Positions 78 to 54,985 of a stretch of 64,000 bases of DNA are shown here, in pieces. Location: contig OX485803.1 in NCBI GenBank assembly GCA_950295325.1, forward strand, positions 16,678,001-16,742,000, given 5' to 3'. The notes under the pieces are model-generated. The model searched no databases, had not been told where the DNA came from, and saw only the letters and a list, made by a program, of their open reading frames with translations. Position 1 is the first letter of the stretch. Each line of letters opens with the position of its first letter. This DNA comes from Polytrichum commune (taxonomy: Eukaryota > Streptophyta > Polytrichopsida > Polytrichales > Polytrichaceae). The position numbers were made by a program, and so were the translations under genes.

Positions 78-3000
78 TTGAGGGAATCCAACAATCACAC
101 CCATAGCTCGACACGCAGCCAATCGAACTGCTGGTGTTGCATCATATTGGGAAGCATGTACCTACCCCACCAATCAAGCACACCGATTTCCTCATTATGG
201 AACACCCATGGAATACAAAATTATGAATTACCAATTGGAGAAGAAAGAAGAAAGACGATTCGATGTTGCCACTAGCATGAATTACTGCATTGTTTCATAT
301 TTGAGTTAGTCTAAGTCTATATGTAATCCTGAAATGAGCATTACAAGAATCAAATTAGATGAGCCTTGACGACTATTGCCTCTTTTTGAAGTTGAACACT
401 TCCAAATGGGCACGGGCAAGGTAGCCGGCACCTATCTCCTCCAAGAATATGCCCCTAGATTCCCACATGGTTGGGTGAAATTATCTGGTTAACCAAGACA
501 CCCCCACTATGATTGGGTGGACCATAGGTAGTAGGGTGCACCGAAAAGAAGTGCTAGGAAAGTCACCCATCCAAGTACTATTCTCCAGCCTTAGTTTACC
601 CCATAGTTCCCATGGGATTTGGGTTAAGGCCTTGGGTTTAAGCCACCCTATGAAGTACCCCAGCAAGCCAGAAAACTAAAAATTAACAAAAGTAAAAAAA
701 TCATACAATGTTGCAACTGACCAAGTTAATTAATATTGATAACCATAGCCATGGCAACGCTGCAGCCATGAGCATATGCAAATCACATGGGGGAGCTGAT
801 GAGGTGAGGAACATACTACAGAAGATAGAATGAACTCTTGTTTTGATGCTGATAATGAACAGAATACTTCAGGTGTCAAACCCGTGAAACATGTCAGGGC
901 TGCTCCTCGAACCTACAGCAATCAAGATGCATGTTCAGAATGGAGAAAATACGAAGAAAGAGATCAACGGCTTTCTGATGTTGTTTATTAAAGAAAAATG
1001 ATACATACTGAGGACCACTTTAAAGTATGGACAAGGGCAGTAACTATGAAATTGTGAGGGCCCTTGAGACTCATCCAAAGGTCGTAGGGTGGATAATTGA
1101 ATTCGAAATTTATGTGGTCACAGGCCTTCAAGTGTAGTGTAAATATTACACAAGTAGACTTTCAAGCAAGTGCTATTTCATTACCAATTATTCATGTGGG
1201 CCACTCTGGATAATAAGTTATGACAATCAAGGCATTGAGATTTTGAAGTGTCATAGTCTTCCATTATTGTGTTAAACCCACCTCTTTTTAGCAATGCAAA
1301 ATTCAGTGGATCATGAAACATTATTCGTTTCATACCATGTAGGACTCCATGTAAGTTTTTTATGCATTCAAACTTCCTAGAGCACTTAGGTCCTCAAGCT
1401 CTAGTGGAAAGTGAGTGGGATAGTCTCATAAGTTTCAACAATGAGAGTTTAGATTTCAATGGACAAGGAACCCTCAAGATCTAGAATAAAGTGCCCCTAA
1501 ATAGACAACATACTATACTAATGTGCTTGCCAGTGCTTAATGCTAGAATTGCTCCGTGGAAAACTCTCAAAGACTCAAAAAGGAAGATCGTTTATGACAA
1601 TGTCTTGCTAAGTTCGATACTACATAGGGCGACAACAACCTCCTCTATCATAGGTCAAATTCTAATATCATGTAGAATAATCAAGCGCATGATGTTAGCT
1701 TAGTTAAGCATGCTTAGGATATTCACCCTTCTTGGGATTTTGTCATTCCACCTGGTGCACCCAAGAGAACTTCCCGCTCTCTTTTTCAGGTCCTGGTGGG
1801 CTGGTATGTTTTTGGCAATGAAATAAATCTTGCTTTGTTTGTCTCAGAAAAACAAACAAAACAAAAAAGTGAAGACTCACCATGGGTGACCTGTGCAGCA
1901 ATACTCCGGGCAAGAGATGTTCTAACGCGAGGAGCCACTGGGAGCATCTGTCCTCACTTTGGTCGGATCCTGGGCTGTGTGTCGGAGATATATTTCCATC
2001 AGACATATTAGCAAGAGCCTTTTGTTCCAGGCATGATGAATGCTGTTTCGGCTGATGATCTTCTTGTGGGTCAGAAATTGATGTGACTCGGAGCAGTTCA
2101 TCCAACAGCTTCAAGAACATCATCACGTTGGAAAGGCTCAACGTCTTGGGATTGCAACATCATCATCAGCATTCACGACAGGAAATTTGGAGAAGAAAAA
2201 TTAAACATCTATGATGAATAGAGATGCTACAGTATGTCTCATTGTGTTCCTGTCACCGAAGTCAATATTTGACTAACACACAAAGTTCTAGCATACCTTG
2301 ATAGCAACAGGAATCAGTTGGTCGTCTGAAGGAATTGCATTGACAAGTCTAGGCGAAACCTCATCAATAGTTTGACATGGCTGAGTTTCTGTAGCGCCCC
2401 TGTCAATTACACCAGCGACCACCTCGAAAATCTTGTCTCTGCATGTGGCAGTGGCCTCAGGGTAATTGACTATGGCAGCCTTAAATGCCTGCAGATCATC
2501 CAAGAAATTAAGCAATGACATCACTCAGATTGGAAGCCTTCATCACAGTAAGCATGAGTGTGGGCGTGTACCACATCCGTTTACTCATGATGGAATTGCA
2601 AGGAAAAGACCAATCTTGGACCAGTACATAGGTCATTGACCCAAGATATCAATAATAACATCAACAATGGAATGAAAGAATTTACCCATGGGTATCAAAA
2701 TTTTGATTATAGCAGTCAAGTATTGATAATTGGTGGGTATGTCAATATGAGAATCTTTATACATCTAAGTTATTATTTGGGTCAATATCATTCTAAACCA
2801 TATGGATACTAAGAGGGTTTTACGTAGTTATGAAGGTTCTTGCATAGTATATAGACCCAAATGGTATCGAAAACACAAATACCATCCAATACCCATTGTC
2901 TATTGGTATTTTTTTTAAATGAAATCCTCAGTATATATATATGCGAATGGTATCAAGAAAGATGATACCAGACAAACACTGGAACAGACCAGAATGGCTT

Positions 3001-18363: not shown

Positions 18364-18847
18364 GGGCCCAAAGCCGGGACCATGAAATTGTGAGAGCCCA
18401 AAAGAAACTGTCCAAAGGCTGTCCCAACATCCTCCAAAATCATTTAGTGTGATCACGGATCCTCAACTGTAGTGTGAAGTCATATGCGACCGAGCCCTTA
18501 ACCAAATGCTATTTCAATGAATTTCTATTCATGCGGGTCCTCACACATGATAATATAGAATAAATCAACGGTTGTGAGCATTCAAAGTGCCATGGTCTCC
18601 CGGTTTTGTGTTAGACCTACCTCCAAGAAGTGATTTTTGAAAATAATCCAAGTGGCCATGAAACATGATGCATTGGATGCCATGTAGAAATCCATGTAGA
18701 CTTTACATCCATATCTTGCATTCACATACTCCGTTTGTCCCTCAAGCCTAGTGTGAAGCGAACTTGGACTGGCTCCGCCTTTTCCACCAATGAGAGTGCT
18801 TGAAGTCTAATGGTCACGGGCTGTCAGTCTCGCGTGTGAAATGACCC
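18364..18847. mobile_element. Tourist-like MITE, copy 2
   Basis: Close relative of the copy at 25234: shared ACCATGAAATTGTGAGAG near the left end and ATGGTCACGGGCT near the right end. Left end GGGCCC is preceded by TAA; the right end GTGAAATGACCC is followed by TTA. The left inverted repeat is shortened. Confidence 0.75.
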
Positions 18848-19200
18848 TTACTGACATGGAAAAATCAACAAACTGGTCATCATAATTTGAAGTTTTTCAA
18901 AAAAAGCAACGCATAATTTGCTCATGTGCTCAATACAAAATCATGGACAAAAAATTTAGGTAAAATAAAAATAGATTATCATGTGAAATATCCCTAATGC
19001 TTCCGATCCAGTGACAATACACTCACATGCTAAGTACACTGGAACTTTTGGGGACTTTACATCCATCTTGCATTCACATGCTCTGTTGGACCCTCAAGCG
19101 TAATGTGGAGTGAACTTGGACCGGCTCCACCTTTTCCACCAATGAGAGTGCTGGGAGCGTAATGGTCACGGGCTCCCAGTCTCACGGGCTCACCAGCCCT
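18848..19200. repeat. Repeat tail shared with 25736-25950, then a MITE right-end fragment
   Basis: Bases 18848-19056 match 25736-25950 (TTTGCTCATGTGCTCAATAC, CTCACATGCTAAGTACACTG), although they lie outside the MITE's inverted repeats. From about 19057 to 19200 a second, partial right half of the MITE follows (TTTACATCCATCTTGCATTC to GGTCACGGGCTC). Confidence 0.65.
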
Positions 19201-21764: not shown

Positions 21765-22105
21765 GATAGATAGATAGATAGAAACTCCGGTCCCTTTTTA
21801 GCAAGGGGCTGGCGTGAATAAAGTGTCCGTTCGTAATGTCAATGACCCGATGCCCACAAGACAAGGGGACATTGGGGCAATACTACTCTCCCCTTTCGAG
21901 GATGGGCACTATAGTGACACACTATACTAGTTCCTAGCTAGCCACTAGTGCCTTGAAGATACCGGACATGGTATCCCCCCAAAGGGCTTTGAGGTACCCA
22001 TACAACAAGGTCCAAGGACCCCCCACCATAGTTGGGTGGACTAAGGTGGTGAGCACCACGCCGGCATGGGGAATAGAACCCACAACCTCCTCATTAGGGG
22101 CCATG
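21765..22105 (-). mobile_element. tRNA-derived SINE, copy 1, 5'-truncated
   Basis: Flanked by an 11-bp target-site duplication TGCTTTGAGCA at 21754-21764 and 22106-22116. On the minus strand it starts inside the head, retains the B-box region (GGGTTCTATTCCCC), then the body, and ends in a (TATC)n tail at 21765-21781. It is nearly identical to 28041-28395 but lacks about 30-50 bases of the head including the A box, as expected of incomplete reverse transcription. Confidence 0.85.
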
Positions 22106-22116
22106 TGCTTTGAGCA

Positions 22117-22640
22117 CTTTATGTATTGGCCAAGGATTGAGACCATGAAATTGTGAGGGCCCTTGGAGTTTACCCCAAGGGCCATACCTTGGGGCCACAC
22201 CATAAGTAAGTGAAATTGATCATTGTGTGGTCACGAGACTTCAATCTTCATGTGTAGTGTAAAGTCGTATGTGATCCCACTCTTCAACAAGTGCCGTTTC
22301 ATTATCATGCACTAATGTGGGTTTTTTTTATGCAAATTATCAAATTAAAACAAGGTTGTCATATTTTAGAAGTGTCATCATGGTCTCCTGGTTTTGTCTT
22401 AGGTAGACTTACCTCTTCAAGGAGGGTTCACCCCCAAATCCGATAGACCATGAAACATCATCCATGTCACGTCATACACAATTTCATGTTGGTTTCAATT
22501 ATAACTTTCTATGATCCTCTAGGCCCTCAAACTACAATGCAAAGTGAAATAGAACAATCTCGCCATTTTCCACCAATAAGAGAATTTAGATTTCAATGGC
22601 CATGGGCCCTCAAGGTTTGGTGTGAACTACTCCCGATGTG
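22117..22640. mobile_element. Tourist-like MITE, copy 3, diverged
   Basis: Shares GACCATGAAATTGTGAGGGC with the family and ends near GGCCATGGGCCCTCAAGG. The inverted repeats have eroded and no clear 3-bp duplication is visible. Immediately abuts the SINE target duplication. Confidence 0.55.
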
Positions 22641-25233: not shown

Positions 25234-25732
25234 GGGCCACTTCACACACGAGCCTAGAGCCGTGACCATGAAATTGTGAGAGACCAAAAGGAACTGTCCA
25301 AAAGCCGTCCCAACACACCTCCAGAATCATGTAGCGTGGTCACGGATCCTCAAGTGTAGTGTGAAGTCGTATGTGACCGGGCCCTCAACCAAATGCTATT
25401 TCAATGAATTTCTATTCATGCGGGTCCTCACACACGATAATATAGAATAAATCAACGGTTGTGAGCATTCGAAGTGCCATGGTCTCCCGGTTTTGTGTTA
25501 GGTCTACCTCCAAGAGGTAGTTTTTGAAAATAATCCAAGTGGTCATGAAACACAATCCATTGGATGCCATGTAGGAATCCGTGTAGACTTTACATCCATC
25601 TTGCATTCACATACTCTGTTGGTCCCTCGAGCATAGTGTGAAGCAAACTTGGACCGGCTCCACCTTTTCCACCAATGAGAGTGCTTGAAGTGTAATGGTC
25701 ACGGGCTCTCAGTCTCGTTTGTGAAGTGGCCA
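25234..25732. mobile_element. Tourist-like MITE, copy 4, near-complete
   Basis: Terminal inverted repeats GGGCCACTTCACACACGAGC (left) and the complement of TGGCCACTTCACAAACGAGA (right), extending about 36 bp to GTGACCAT on both sides. TTA is duplicated at 25231-25233 and 25733-25735. TTA/TAA duplications and these ends are what PIF/Harbinger-derived Tourist MITEs show. No transposase. Confidence 0.85.
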
Positions 25733-25735
25733 TTA

Positions 25736-26470
25736 GTGACATGGAAAAACTATCAAATTGGTCATCACATTTTGAAGTTTTTCAAAAAGCGACACATAAT
25801 TTGCTCATGTGCTCAATACAATATCGTGGACAAAACAATTTAGGTAGAATAAAAATAAAATATTATGTTTATTTTCCCTAATGCTTCCAACGCAGTGACA
25901 ATACGCTCACATGCTAAGTACACTGGAAGTTTTGGGGAGTTTTTTTTCAGTACTCTAAAGCACAAATTTAGAAATCCCAATGGTAGGTGCTTTTTATATA
26001 TGTGTGTCCATAAACTATGCTAAAATTTGAGGTGTCATTGTAATGAGATTTGCTATGCCTATTGCTAGTGGTCATTATGTTAACAAGTGGCTAGAATGGG
26101 CATAGGTCCGGCCCAAATGGAATACCGTTGTCGTACTTCAAAAAAAAAAAATGGAGGCTAGAGATTCTATTGAAAACCAAAACCTTTTTCTAAAACCTTT
26201 TTACTTTTTACTTTTTACTTTTTGTGGGTGGGCAGAAGGTGCTCTATAACCACACCCAACTTCTAGCCAAATTTTGGTACAAGCTGTTAAAATTAAGACC
26301 CCGAAGCAAAGAATTACGTGGCATATGACTCCATATGCATTTAGGTGTAAATAGTGTTATGGTGGTCCACCCAATCTTAACGCTTTGGAGCAAGGTTTGA
26401 GGTCGAGGCATCTGTAGTCAACGATGTTCATTTAACCATTCACCAGGGTCATGTAATGCCAACATGGATG
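25736..26470. repeat. Repeat tail shared with 18848-19056, then unassigned sequence
   Basis: The first 215 bases match 18848-19056 as described there. The remainder up to the microsatellite has no recognisable gene; it includes a poly(A) run at 26140 and a short TTTTTACTTTTTACT repeat at 26200. Confidence 0.5.
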
Positions 26471-27460: not shown

Positions 27461-28040
27461 TAAATTACTAAATTACAAGAGACACTATGTGGAGATTTTC
27501 AATCAAGCAAGCATATTCCAAAAGTGACCCCATGAGATGTATAACATGGACCAGAACGAGGATTGTATATAATTTACAACCAAAGTTATATATTTAAGAC
27601 TTACTTGTAGTAAGGACAACCACGTAAAGTTATTGTACCTACCGTGTACTACACTAATCCGTCCTGTAATTAGTGTGGTTTACCACTTGGAGCTATGTGT
27701 TATTATGACATGTATAAAGAATACTATTGTTTTTGAGATAGGTTTATTTTCATGTTCTATTGATGTACATACTACACTAAATATATGATCAAGTACAACC
27801 TTCATAATTCATCATGGACCCACATTGATTTTGTTTACAATCCCTTGTTAGTAACCATAGAAGGTGTTACATGACACTTGGTGATGTAAGTATGACAAGC
27901 CACAAAGACCATCATAATTGGCAGCACTACCACACTTGATAAGATGTTTAATGTAGTTGTTTGTGTTATTTGACAATATTGCAAATTTCTCACTTACAAC
28001 AAAAGTTTTAGCAATGTGTAATACCAAATGGCAACCCATA

Positions 28041-28395
28041 GATAGAAACTCCGGTCCCTTTTTAGCAAGGGGCCGGCGTGAATAAAGTGTCCGTTCGTAA
28101 TGCCAATGACCCGATGCCCACCAGACAAGGGGACATTGGGACAATACTACTCTCCCCTTTCAAGGATGGACACTATAGTGACACACAATACTAGTTCCTA
28201 GCTAGCCACTAGTGCCTTGAAGATACCGGACATGGTATCCCCCCAAAGGGCTTTGAGGTACCCATACAACAAGGTCCAAGGACCCCCCACCATAGTTGGG
28301 TGGACTAAGGTGGTGAGCACCACGCCGGCATGGGGAATCGAACCCACAACCTCCTCGTTGGGGGCCATCAGCCCCAACCACCAAGCCAAGGCCCG
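28041..28395 (-). mobile_element. tRNA-derived SINE, copy 2, with intact head
   Basis: A 12-bp target-site duplication TGGCAACCCATA flanks it at 28029-28040 and 28396-28407. On the minus strand the 5' end carries an A-box-like TGGCTTGGTGG and a perfect B box GGTTCGATTCC about 40 bases later, the layout of a tRNA-type Pol III promoter. The body (GTCCACCCAACTATGGTGGG, GGGGGATACCATG) leads to a short TCTATC tail. 355 bp, no coding capacity; mobilisation would need a partner LINE, not seen here. Confidence 0.9.
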
Positions 28396-28407
28396 TGGCA
28401 ACCCATA

Positions 28408-50300: not shown

Positions 50301-51355
50301 TCAAGGGCCTAAGGGACCAAGGAAGTTTTAATGGATGAACAAACTAACATGCAATGAATCATGTTTCATGGACGACAGGCTTTTGCGTCAAGCACACCTC
50401 AAAAGGGTGGGTCTAACACAAAACCAGGAGCCCATGAACCTTCAAAACCTCACAACCCTTGATTTATTATTACTTATTGTGTGGAAGGGTCCACATGAAT
50501 AGGATGGCAATGATAATAGGATTTAGTTGAGAGCCCGGTCACCTATGTCTCTACACTTGATGGCCCGTGACAACACAAAACTCAATTTCAATTGTCCATG
50601 GTAGAACCTTCAAGTGAATTTGAAGGGCCCTCACAATTTCATGGTCACAGCCCTCAACAACAGTATAAAGTGCCCCTTACTATCAGAAAATGCATGTCAA
50701 AATCAATCTGGACACAAAACTCCAAAAGGTGGATTTTGTGTTACCCTGGGCTTGTTGCAAAATCCAGTAGACTATGAAACGTTATACATTGCATGTAAGT
50801 TTGTTCATCCATTCAAACCTCCTTGGTCCCTTGGATCCTCAAGCTCTACTGTAAAGTGAAGTGGAAGGGTCTTGGCATTTTCCATCATTGAAAGATTTAG
50901 ATTTCAACGGTGCCCAGCCCTCAAGCACTGGTGTAAAATGCCCCTTGGTATCAGAAAATGCATCTTAAAATCAAATTTGGAAACAGAACTCACCAAAGAT
51001 TTTGAGGATGTTCTGTGAAGTCATATGCAGCAGCAGAATTTTGACTAGAGGGCCACATCCAAGCACTGAACTTCACGCATGCATCCTTCAACATAGGTAA
51101 GGCCGACACAGCTGTCATGGCAAGCCAGAACCGACGAGCCCCAAACCCTGGGGGTGTTTCCCAAACAAGCCTTGGACGGCTCCTTAATCCCAGTAAAATA
51201 AAACTGAACCATCTAGGTTTCCATGACCAACCCACAATTAAGCCCACTGCAATGGCCATCCATATGGGTGTCATGCAAAACATCATGTCCACAGCCGTAT
51301 CCAGCACCACAGGTTTCCCCCATAAGGAGTAATTTACTTTGCCTGTTGCGTCCAT
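47324..51355 (-). CDS. Membrane-anchored START-domain lipid-binding protein (plant PC-TP/STARD-like)
   Basis: Complete 6-exon gene, 441 aa: exons 51355-50994, 50061-49899, 49743-49567, 49090-49007, 48865-48784, 47781-47324; total 1326 bases, in frame. The N terminus has a membrane segment (about residues 23-44, MMFCMTPIWMAIAVG) followed by GWSWKPRW and PPGFGARRFW, hallmarks of the plant subfamily that includes Arabidopsis At3g23080, At3g13062 and At1g55960. The START domain covers roughly residues 125-330: WQQIMDRS, RSRTVMEDVSP, RDFFWDNDFR, FPFYCKDREYIVGRRIWES, VDVYFSSWSIRAVES, RGDGQ, MGIRQGMWGCVKKLEPG. A second hydrophobic segment (KWLLLGGAVAVAC) and a basic tail close the protein. Likely a lipid or sterol carrier tethered to an internal membrane; the ligand is unknown. 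Intron 1 contains a complete MITE plus a MITE fragment. An upstream in-frame ATG at 51373 is possible. Confidence 0.95.
50199..50676. mobile_element. Tourist-like MITE, copy 6, in START-gene intron 1
   Basis: Ends GGGCCACTTTACACTAAGCT and TATAAAGTGCCCC form inverted repeats. TTA is duplicated at 50196-50198 and 50677-50679. It lies between exons 51355-50994 and 50061-49899. Confidence 0.9.
50700..50945. mobile_element. Tourist-like MITE right-half fragment
   Basis: GGATCCTCAAGCTCTACTGT, AGATTTCAACGG and a final GTGTAAAATGCCCC match the right half of the family. The left half is missing. It sits beside copy 6 in the same intron. Confidence 0.7.
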
Positions 51356-53780: not shown

Positions 53781-54401
53781 GTCCGGTTGGCGCACGACTT
53801 CCCATACTCTCGCCTCCATTTGCACTTATACGAATGTGGTGCAGCTCCAGAGGTCGAGAGCAGAGGTTCCGTGGGCACGAGCTCGCAAATTCTCGGCAAC
53901 AAAAGAGGCCGCGGTGCTCTCCCTCCTCCCCCCTTGATCATCCACGACAAACGACACAGGCATGACCCCACCCCGGAATCTACCTCCGCTCATTTCCACA
54001 TCTACGAAAACACCCCCGACATATTCCACCGCAACCTAGATCTACAAATCTACATAATAAGATGATTTGGGGGCGTATTCGTCACCCAGTTGAAAGCGGG
54101 GACGGGCCGCCCACATCTTCGAAACCGTGGTTTCGAGATTCTTATTCGGTTAACACACGTAGATCTAAAAATGTTCACAGGGGGGTGATTTTGGGGGCAC
54201 ATGTCTATAAGCTGACAGCGGGGATGAGATAAGGCAGCCCGACCTATCACGACAGGGCTCCGAATTCCCCTCTTGTTTGTTTCCTATTTTGGTTTCCTTT
54301 CTTTCCCCTTTAGAACTAATAATAAGCCAATATGAAAATGCTTTGAAAATGCTTTGAAAACGCCTCTTGTAGGTCCGTGCAAGAAGCACACGCTCAATTA
54401 T

Positions 54402-54985
54402 AAGGGAGCATAAAGCGGGTCTCCGTGTTGGAGGCACCCCCGGGGATAGCCTTATTCTATAGCCGTGTGTGTGTTCGACACCGCTAGTTTTAAGGGTCCA
54501 CGAAAGTCATGTTTAAGGGCCGGTTTAGACTGTCGGACAAGAATGTCAAGGGAATAGAGCAATATGATTGACTATGAAATGGGTTCTTTGCTAGTCGAGG
54601 TTTACGCTACGGTCAAGACTTCTCCGGTGGAGAATTTTGAACATGGATGGAAAAAATGACATGGCTATCAACATGTCAATATTATTTGTCAGGGGGAGTT
54701 TGTAAGGGAGCATAAAGGCGGCCTTCGTGTTGGAGGCACCCCCGGGGATAGCCTTGTTCTATAGCCGTGTGTGTGTTCGACACCGCTAGTTTAAGGGTTG
54801 GTTTAGACTTTCGGACAAGAATTTCAGGGGAATAGAGCAATATGATTGGCTACGAAATGGGTTCTTCGGTGGTCGAGGTTTACACTACGGGCAAGGCTTC
54901 TCCAGTGGAGAACTTCGAACATGGATGGAAAAAATGACATGGCCATCAACATGCCAACACTATTTGTCAAGGCGAGTTTTGTGGA
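54402..54985. repeat. 302-bp tandem duplication
   Basis: AAGGGAGCATAAAG at 54402 and 54704 starts two units sharing GAGGCACCCCCGGGGATAGC, GTGTGTGTTCGACACCGC and AACATGGATGGAAAAAATGA. Identity is high; differences are mostly transitions, compatible with methylation-driven decay. A B-box-like TGTTCGACACC follows a TAGCC motif, so each unit might derive from a Pol III element. Confidence 0.8.

Follow-up and report, generated by a model that had tools for sequence, protein, structure and literature searches.

A 5S rRNA-headed SINE family in a land plant genome with body segments in common with a tRNA-headed SINE

Introduction

Whether a plant SINE can carry a head derived from 5S rRNA, and whether one SINE body can be combined with two different RNA polymerase III promoters, is the question raised by a locus on contig C1 (16678001-16742000) of a 408-Mb land plant genome; this stretch of 64,000 nucleotides is referred to below as the window. 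A first-pass annotation had described window 430-661 as an element with a 5S-like head that shares a body segment with a tRNA-headed SINE of the same window, and had weighed two readings, a SINE3-like family of plants and a Cassandra LTR whose resemblance to that SINE would be fortuitous. 5S-headed SINEs are known from insects, vertebrates, and Aspergillus, according to the accessible portions of three papers (PMC10886601, PMC3747384, PMC5063351). For plants, the available part of PMC10741241 describes nearly all SINEs as tRNA-derived and distinguishes three LINE superfamilies.

Results

The window contains a full-length element with a 5S-derived head

The sequence at window 648-233 (minus strand) is a full SINE with a complete 5S-derived head, a core, a 3′ part, and a TTTC-type tail, hereafter called the 5S-SINE. 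It is enclosed by 11-nt duplications at 659-649 and 232-222, which are identical at 10 of 11 positions. The features are, in the order in which the minus strand is read:

649..659, minus strand: 5′ target-site duplication, GGTACTTCATA; the duplication score of this copy is 8.5
534..648, minus strand: 5S-derived head, matching RF00001 end to end with 17.4 bits; the family consensus is 84% identical to the genome's own 5S genes over 69 nt
398..533, minus strand: core, with a block in common with the tRNA-headed SINE at about 532-501; lower limit approximate
254..397, minus strand: 3′ part, with blocks common to the tRNA-headed SINE and a LINE 3′ UTR; upper limit approximate
233..253, minus strand: TTTC/TTC microsatellite-like tail
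222..232, minus strand: 3′ target-site duplication, GGTAATTCATA, 10/11 identical to the 5′ one

The box names used for the head (534..648) follow what we take to be the usual assignment. The 3′ part (254..397) ends in a 3′ hairpin region, which reads ATTCACGCCGG.. in the family consensus. The lower limit of 430 proposed earlier was too high, since the element continues to 233, and the interval given corresponds to its 5′ half plus a duplication. The accompanying 5S match, placed at 661-534, is indeed end to end, but the 5S part itself covers 648-534, and 659-649 is the 5′ target-site duplication.

The window contains several other repeats. A dispersed repeat is present at 1013-1081, 22112-22180, and 50551-50645, of which the first two have ATGAAATTGTGAGGGCCCTT in common and the third lies in the other orientation. 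A long direct repeat is found at 18366-19058 and 25252-25942, about 6.9 kb apart, with pieces that are 86-92% identical, and window 54398-54979 holds repeat units that are 88-92% alike at a spacing of approximately 280-300 nt.

The 5S-SINE belongs to a dispersed family with sharp ends

The genome was searched with window 430-661 (minus strand), and the best 40 of 1625 candidates were scored, the 39 others showing 78-84% identity. These 39 loci were fetched as stretches of 1101 bases each and aligned with the window copy (n = 40). Agreement in the alignment sets in sharply at GGGTGGCTTAAACCC, where the 5S begins, and breaks off sharply at GGAGTCGTC, after which a TTTC microsatellite follows, and beyond both limits the majority base drops to approximately 30-50% in most columns. 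The element is about 394 nt long, with 329-428 nt between the two limits in the 40 aligned copies. Divergence from the consensus was 14.6% on average with a minimum of 8.1%, figures that are biased, as are those for conservation per region, because the 40 copies are the best matches to window 430-661.

For the detection of target-site duplications, the bases before the head were compared with those after the tail, and the upstream bases of one copy paired with the downstream bases of another served as control. A duplication score of at least 8 was found in 18 of the 40 copies, compared to 1.6% of 1560 control pairings, and a score of at least 10 in 8 of 40, compared to 0.06%. The duplications vary in length, the longest exact one being 14 nt. 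Such variable duplications are a signature of target-primed reverse transcription and fit a SINE.

The family comprises several hundred copies. With up to 3 mismatches allowed, a 30-mer of the head matched the genome 602 times (reversed control, 0), and the 100 places listed among these 602 cover all 7 large contigs. A 36-mer of the 3′ end matched 95 times (control, 0); this lower number is probably due to the longer pattern and the more diverged region.

The head resembles the genome's own 5S genes

Model positions 1-120 of RF00001 match window 648-533 (minus strand) with 17.4 bits (E 0.39 in a small search), compared to a gathering score of 38, and a search of the whole window against Rfam at the gathering threshold gave no match, the window copy lying below the 5S cut-off. 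At E values up to 0.1, Rfam listed 1 of 12 5S-SINE copies (L030, 25.8 bits). Stronger evidence for the origin of the head than this sub-cut-off score comes from the match between the family consensus and the 5S genes of the same genome. A genome search with RF00001 scored 47 of 15430 candidates; 29 of these exceed the cut-off, 12 of them with 98-110 bits. In the six 5S loci read, the consensus was 83-85% identical over consensus positions 27-92 or 27-95, with E 2.7e-17 in most of them (for L040, 84% over 27-95, E 2.7e-17), and this match takes in the box C stretch TAGTACT-GGATGGGTGACC. The head is therefore small-RNA-derived by homology to 5S, and its sequence predicts an internal RNA polymerase III promoter. 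Moreover, it has states of the genome's own 5S genes, for example CTCTGA and GCCGGAATAGTACT, in place of which angiosperm 5S presumably has CTCCGC and GCGAGAGTAGTACT. Since the head carries the own-5S rather than the angiosperm states, its source would most likely be a 5S gene of the own plant lineage. That the host is a land plant follows from contig C8, on which rbcL is adjacent to a frame resembling accD by eye; the rbcL itself appears to be of a bryophyte type.

The 12 strong 5S matches (among the 47 scored of 15430 candidates) are scattered and do not form one dense array. At one locus (L045), two full 5S genes lie in opposite orientation approximately 1.2 kb apart, at C2:45902799-45902917 (minus) and 45903998-45904116 (plus).

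With the ends, the duplications, and the source of the head at hand, the two readings that do without a SINE can be weighed. The 5S-bearing element known in plants is Cassandra, as described in the available part of PMC10886601, and if the 5S sequence lay in the LTR of such a TRIM, the likeness to the tRNA-headed SINE would be due to chance. We consider this exceedingly improbable. The 39 loci show a single match each, with 341-530 nt inspected on each side, and no LTR pairs; L016 alone has a second, weak and partial match with 67% identity. The TG..CA ends that the first-pass annotation had named as the sign of an LTR are absent, the consensus instead starting with GGGTGG, at the 5S end, and running out into a microsatellite tail, (TTTC)n, and the duplications differ in length from copy to copy. 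Likewise, in 15 loci around 17 weaker RF00001 matches, only three repeat pairs (L053, L056, and L059) included the 5S match, at a spacing of about 184 nt. Cassandra is thus rejected for the 5S-SINE family, a statement that concerns this family and not the whole genome. Processed 5S pseudogenes with chance neighbours, the other reading, could draw on the presence of 5S-like loci outside the 5S-SINE family; we give it practically no weight, as the 40 aligned copies have one sequence of about 394 nt in common, approximately 70% of which lies outside the 5S part. The SINE3-like plant family that had been suggested is, by contrast with the LTR reading, supported by single copies, duplications, and sharp ends, and we regard its identity as a 5S-headed SINE as nearly certain.

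The paired weak 5S matches at L053, L056, and L059 lie within two-copy repeats.

A young tRNA-headed SINE family and its likely LINE driver

The tRNA-headed SINE (tRNA-SINE) is present in the window in two copies:

28036..28400, minus strand: tRNA-headed SINE, full-length; 468 bits to the family profile, which includes this copy; duplication TATGGGTTG
21766..22137, minus strand: tRNA-headed SINE; 448 bits to the family profile, which includes this copy; BLAST match from query position 29, the first 28 nt being unmatched

This is a young family. Of 1799 candidates, the best 40, among them the window copy itself, show 97-100% identity to that copy, and an exact duplication of at least 8 nt was found in 17 of 18 copies, compared to 1 of 306 control pairings, in a test that left out L063 and one window copy. 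With up to 3 mismatches allowed, the genome contains 577 matches to the 3′ 45-mer, and the control gave 0. ARAGORN called no tRNA on the consensus, and the label "tRNA-headed" rests on the first-pass annotation and on motifs that we take to be A- and B-box-like.

LINEs were collected by Pfam genome searches, in which 150 candidates each were scored for the reverse transcriptase (of 2620) and for the endonuclease (of 401); the LINEs among them were sorted by match length, and the 3′ sides of some were fetched. L1-like LINEs (X1; L079-L081) were rejected as helpers, as 3 of 3 terminate in poly(A) and a SINE 3′ end was not found in any of them. LINE types X2 and X3 (L082-L086) were likewise set aside, no SINE-like end being present in the stretches fetched, in which 3′ ends could not be located. 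The loci L082-L086, L093, L094, and L098 hold diverse LINE-like reverse transcriptase genes, one of them in a frame of 1845 amino acids, and the regions past the reverse transcriptase in this group appear proline- and glutamine-rich by eye.

A further lineage is X4. The copy examined has a reverse transcriptase (RVT_1, 118 bits), an endonuclease (Exo_endo_phos, 24.6 bits with a cut-off of 24.5), and RNase H in the adjoining frame (56 bits). Against PDB, its reverse transcriptase scored 102 bits to R2 and about 59 to human L1. Some plant L1 elements have RNase H, so this domain alone does not separate X4 from them. The one X4 copy inspected for this feature (L099; C2:36078500-36084610, frame from 1956) contains GDIELNPGP near the start of its frame, before the first Met, which presumably represents a 2A self-cleaving peptide motif.

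The 3′ ends of X4 fall into several types, X4a, X4b, and a further one. Among 20 X4 3′ pieces, 17 were aligned as X4a, L109 lacked this end, and L111 and L115 had an X4b-like one; 14 more pieces comprised 5 with the X4a end, 4 with a tRNA-SINE-like end, and 5 with neither. The X4a end (17 copies aligned) consists of AACGGGCTC..ATTCACGCC, a hairpin, GGGCGTTA, and (TTTTC)n. In the structure predicted from this same alignment, 408 of 425 pair cells are standard, with two-sided changes at several positions. For X4b, a UTR query overlapping the tRNA-SINE-like part by only 13 nt gave a list of 40 places, and 20 copies were fetched from these. In all 20, the last ~150 nt align with the tRNA-SINE profile, starting at profile position 225 or 226 and stopping at 365-377 (of 379), with E values from 4e-32 to 1e-45. 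The tail, counted by eye, is of the CTAT type in 18 of 20, L132 and L134 having other short repeats. By sequence, the tRNA-SINE and X4b are a SINE/LINE pair, and the driver of the tRNA-SINE is likely an X4 LINE with an endonuclease, a reverse transcriptase closer to R2 than to L1, and RNase H.

The further X4 3′-end type (L143, L147, and L149; L115 is cut off) has a TTC tail and a fully or almost fully paired hairpin. Stems differ between the X4 3′-end types, while the layout stays similar.

The two SINE families have collinear body segments in common

A body block common to the two SINEs had been noticed in the first-pass annotation, together with the possibility that it would vanish when consensus sequences are compared. 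It stays, and further blocks join it. The first block, 5S-SINE 121-152 with tRNA-SINE 89-119, is identical at 27 of 32 positions (BLAST E 5e-5) and begins 1-2 bases from the 5S end in the 5S-SINE and shortly past the tRNA-like part in the tRNA-SINE. It is followed by 205-220 with 152-167 (14/16, E 0.15, weak alone), 253-283 with 230-260 (24/31, E 0.001), and 365-375 with 320-330 (11/11, E 0.40, weak alone). The four blocks are collinear in both consensuses and reach into the 3′ hairpin; the same BLAST listing contains further weak matches that break this order. Core against core gave a score of 48, a value that 2 of 2000 dinucleotide shuffles also attained, and the two 3′ parts gave 42, with again 2 of 2000 shuffles as high. 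The tRNA-SINE profile exceeded 5 bits in 24 of the 40 5S-SINE copies and 10 bits in 9, with a best score of 15.9; of 400 shuffled sequences, 0 exceeded 5 bits. A hybrid intermediate, with a tRNA head on the 5S-SINE body, was sought with a corresponding query, and in each of the 40 matches scored of 3350 candidates, the overlap with the tRNA part was 3 nt or less.

The 3′ part of the 5S-SINE also resembles X4b, with a score of 43 that none of 2000 shuffles attained (maximum, 42), although the match is confined to blocks. A hairpin layout, AC-G-CCGG..CGG-A-GU, is common to most X4b copies, the tRNA-SINE, and the last hairpin of the 5S-SINE, whereas the tails differ (TTTC in the 5S-SINE versus CTAT in X4b). 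X4a was considered as the direct partner, having ATTCACGCCGG, the hairpin, and a TTTTC tail in common with the 5S-SINE, and was rejected, since the stem layout and the upstream UTR differ by eye. The exact LINE partner was not found among the X4 3′ ends sampled, and we take it that the 5S-SINE would be driven by an older or unsampled X4 relative.

How the two families came to have these segments in common can be explained in two ways. Two independent SINE births, in which a 5S gene and a tRNA gene were each fused to pieces of related X4 LINEs, so that the shared segments were captured twice, would agree with the LINE-like 3′ parts of both SINEs, and a LINE source for the core is possible, LINE 5′ regions having been sampled at one locus (L099). 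The core speaks against it. No match was found with the X4b 3′ UTR (score 17; 456 of 500 shuffles as high), nor with the LINE stretches available to that comparison, other than a truncated old SINE copy (L095) and a match of 28 nt within flanking sequence at L127, and the core blocks are collinear in both families. We regard two births as rather unlikely. Since the core has no match in the X4b 3′ end, we favour an exchange of heads on a single body over a double capture of one LINE end. The best explanation, to which we assign a probability of roughly 0.72, is therefore a 5S-headed SINE integrated by target-primed reverse transcription, with an X4-type reverse transcriptase that would use the hairpin and tail, and with the same body also carried under a tRNA head, probably through a head swap. 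The earlier proposal that one body was captured by two RNA polymerase III heads thereby stands as the best explanation, its direction and mechanism being inferred. The doubt in it sits in the head swap, the weak point of which is the modest core match (27/32; 2/2000) and the fact that two of the four blocks are non-significant alone.

Mechanistically, RNA polymerase III would most likely start at the internal 5S promoter and transcribe through core and tail. Against easy read-through stands a TTTT at consensus position 172, a candidate stop; 32 of the 40 copies have TTTT somewhere, and 8 have TTTTT. The 3′ hairpin and pyrimidine tail of the RNA would then be recognised by the reverse transcriptase of the RNase H-bearing X4 lineage, which would copy the SINE RNA at a nick, insert the copy in trans, and leave a duplication. 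In the head swap, reverse transcription probably moved between two templates, a SINE body and a second small RNA, and the head was attached near the ACCACCT junction. The exchange would most likely have occurred by template switching between SINE RNA and 5S rRNA, or in the reverse direction.

Discussion

The 5S-SINE can be compared to several known systems. SINE3 elements (zebrafish SINE3, lepidopteran HaSE3, and the fungal SINE3-1_AO and AfuSINE3) are likewise short dispersed elements with a 5S head, as described in the accessible sections of PMC3747384, PMC10886601, and PMC5063351. The 5S-SINE differs from those of animals and fungi in its land plant host, in a head with own-5S states, and in having body segments in common with a tRNA-SINE of the same genome. 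Animal and fungal SINE3 elements depend on LINEs, as the 5S-SINE would. Copy number differs as well, with hundreds for the 5S-SINE and five for AfuSINE3 in the part of PMC5063351 that was available. A likeness in architecture is also offered by the DeuSINEs, one superfamily with either 5S heads (AmnSINE1/SINE3) or tRNA heads (LmeSINE1/SacSINE1) and LINE-derived 3′ ends (PMC3747384, accessible text). They differ in their animal hosts and their CR1 or RSg-1 partners, and the likeness is one of description.

Among plants, TS SINE with RTE-1_Stu and ZmSINE2/3 with LINE1-1_ZM are cases in which the 3′ end of a SINE is common with that of a LINE, and a maize and sorghum SINE group has a 3′ hairpin, like the 5S-SINE (both from the same portion of PMC3747384). 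TS SINE and ZmSINE2/3 differ in having tRNA heads and L1 or RTE partners, whereas the X4 reverse transcriptase scores higher to R2 than to L1. Cassandra TRIMs resemble the 5S-SINE as plant retroelements with a 5S-derived RNA polymerase III promoter, but they are LTR elements, and the 5S-SINE is without an LTR pair.

In the literature searched, outside of which lay subscription papers and Repbase, no plant 5S-headed SINE (SINE3) was found, and a report among those sources may exist. We lean slightly towards the view that this is the first plant lineage of 5S-headed SINEs, with one body, two interchangeable RNA polymerase III heads, and a hairpin-recognising plant LINE outside L1 and RTE. A plant SINE3 would break with the tRNA origin described for the SINEs of plants, and the helper of the 5S-SINE may lie outside L1 and RTE. 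The origin of Cassandra has been attributed, speculatively, to the landing of a SINE3 in an LTR (PMC10886601, available part). The available text of PMC10853983, which mentions promoter acquisition by animal SINEs, prefers capture from a 5S array. If the present reading is true, the 5S-SINE is the kind of plant element that was supposed as the source of Cassandra's 5S, and the family makes a SINE3 origin of Cassandra testable by comparing the 5S regions. As the same genome has a young tRNA-headed family together with its LINE, it would be a good system in which to study how a SINE changes its head while keeping its LINE.
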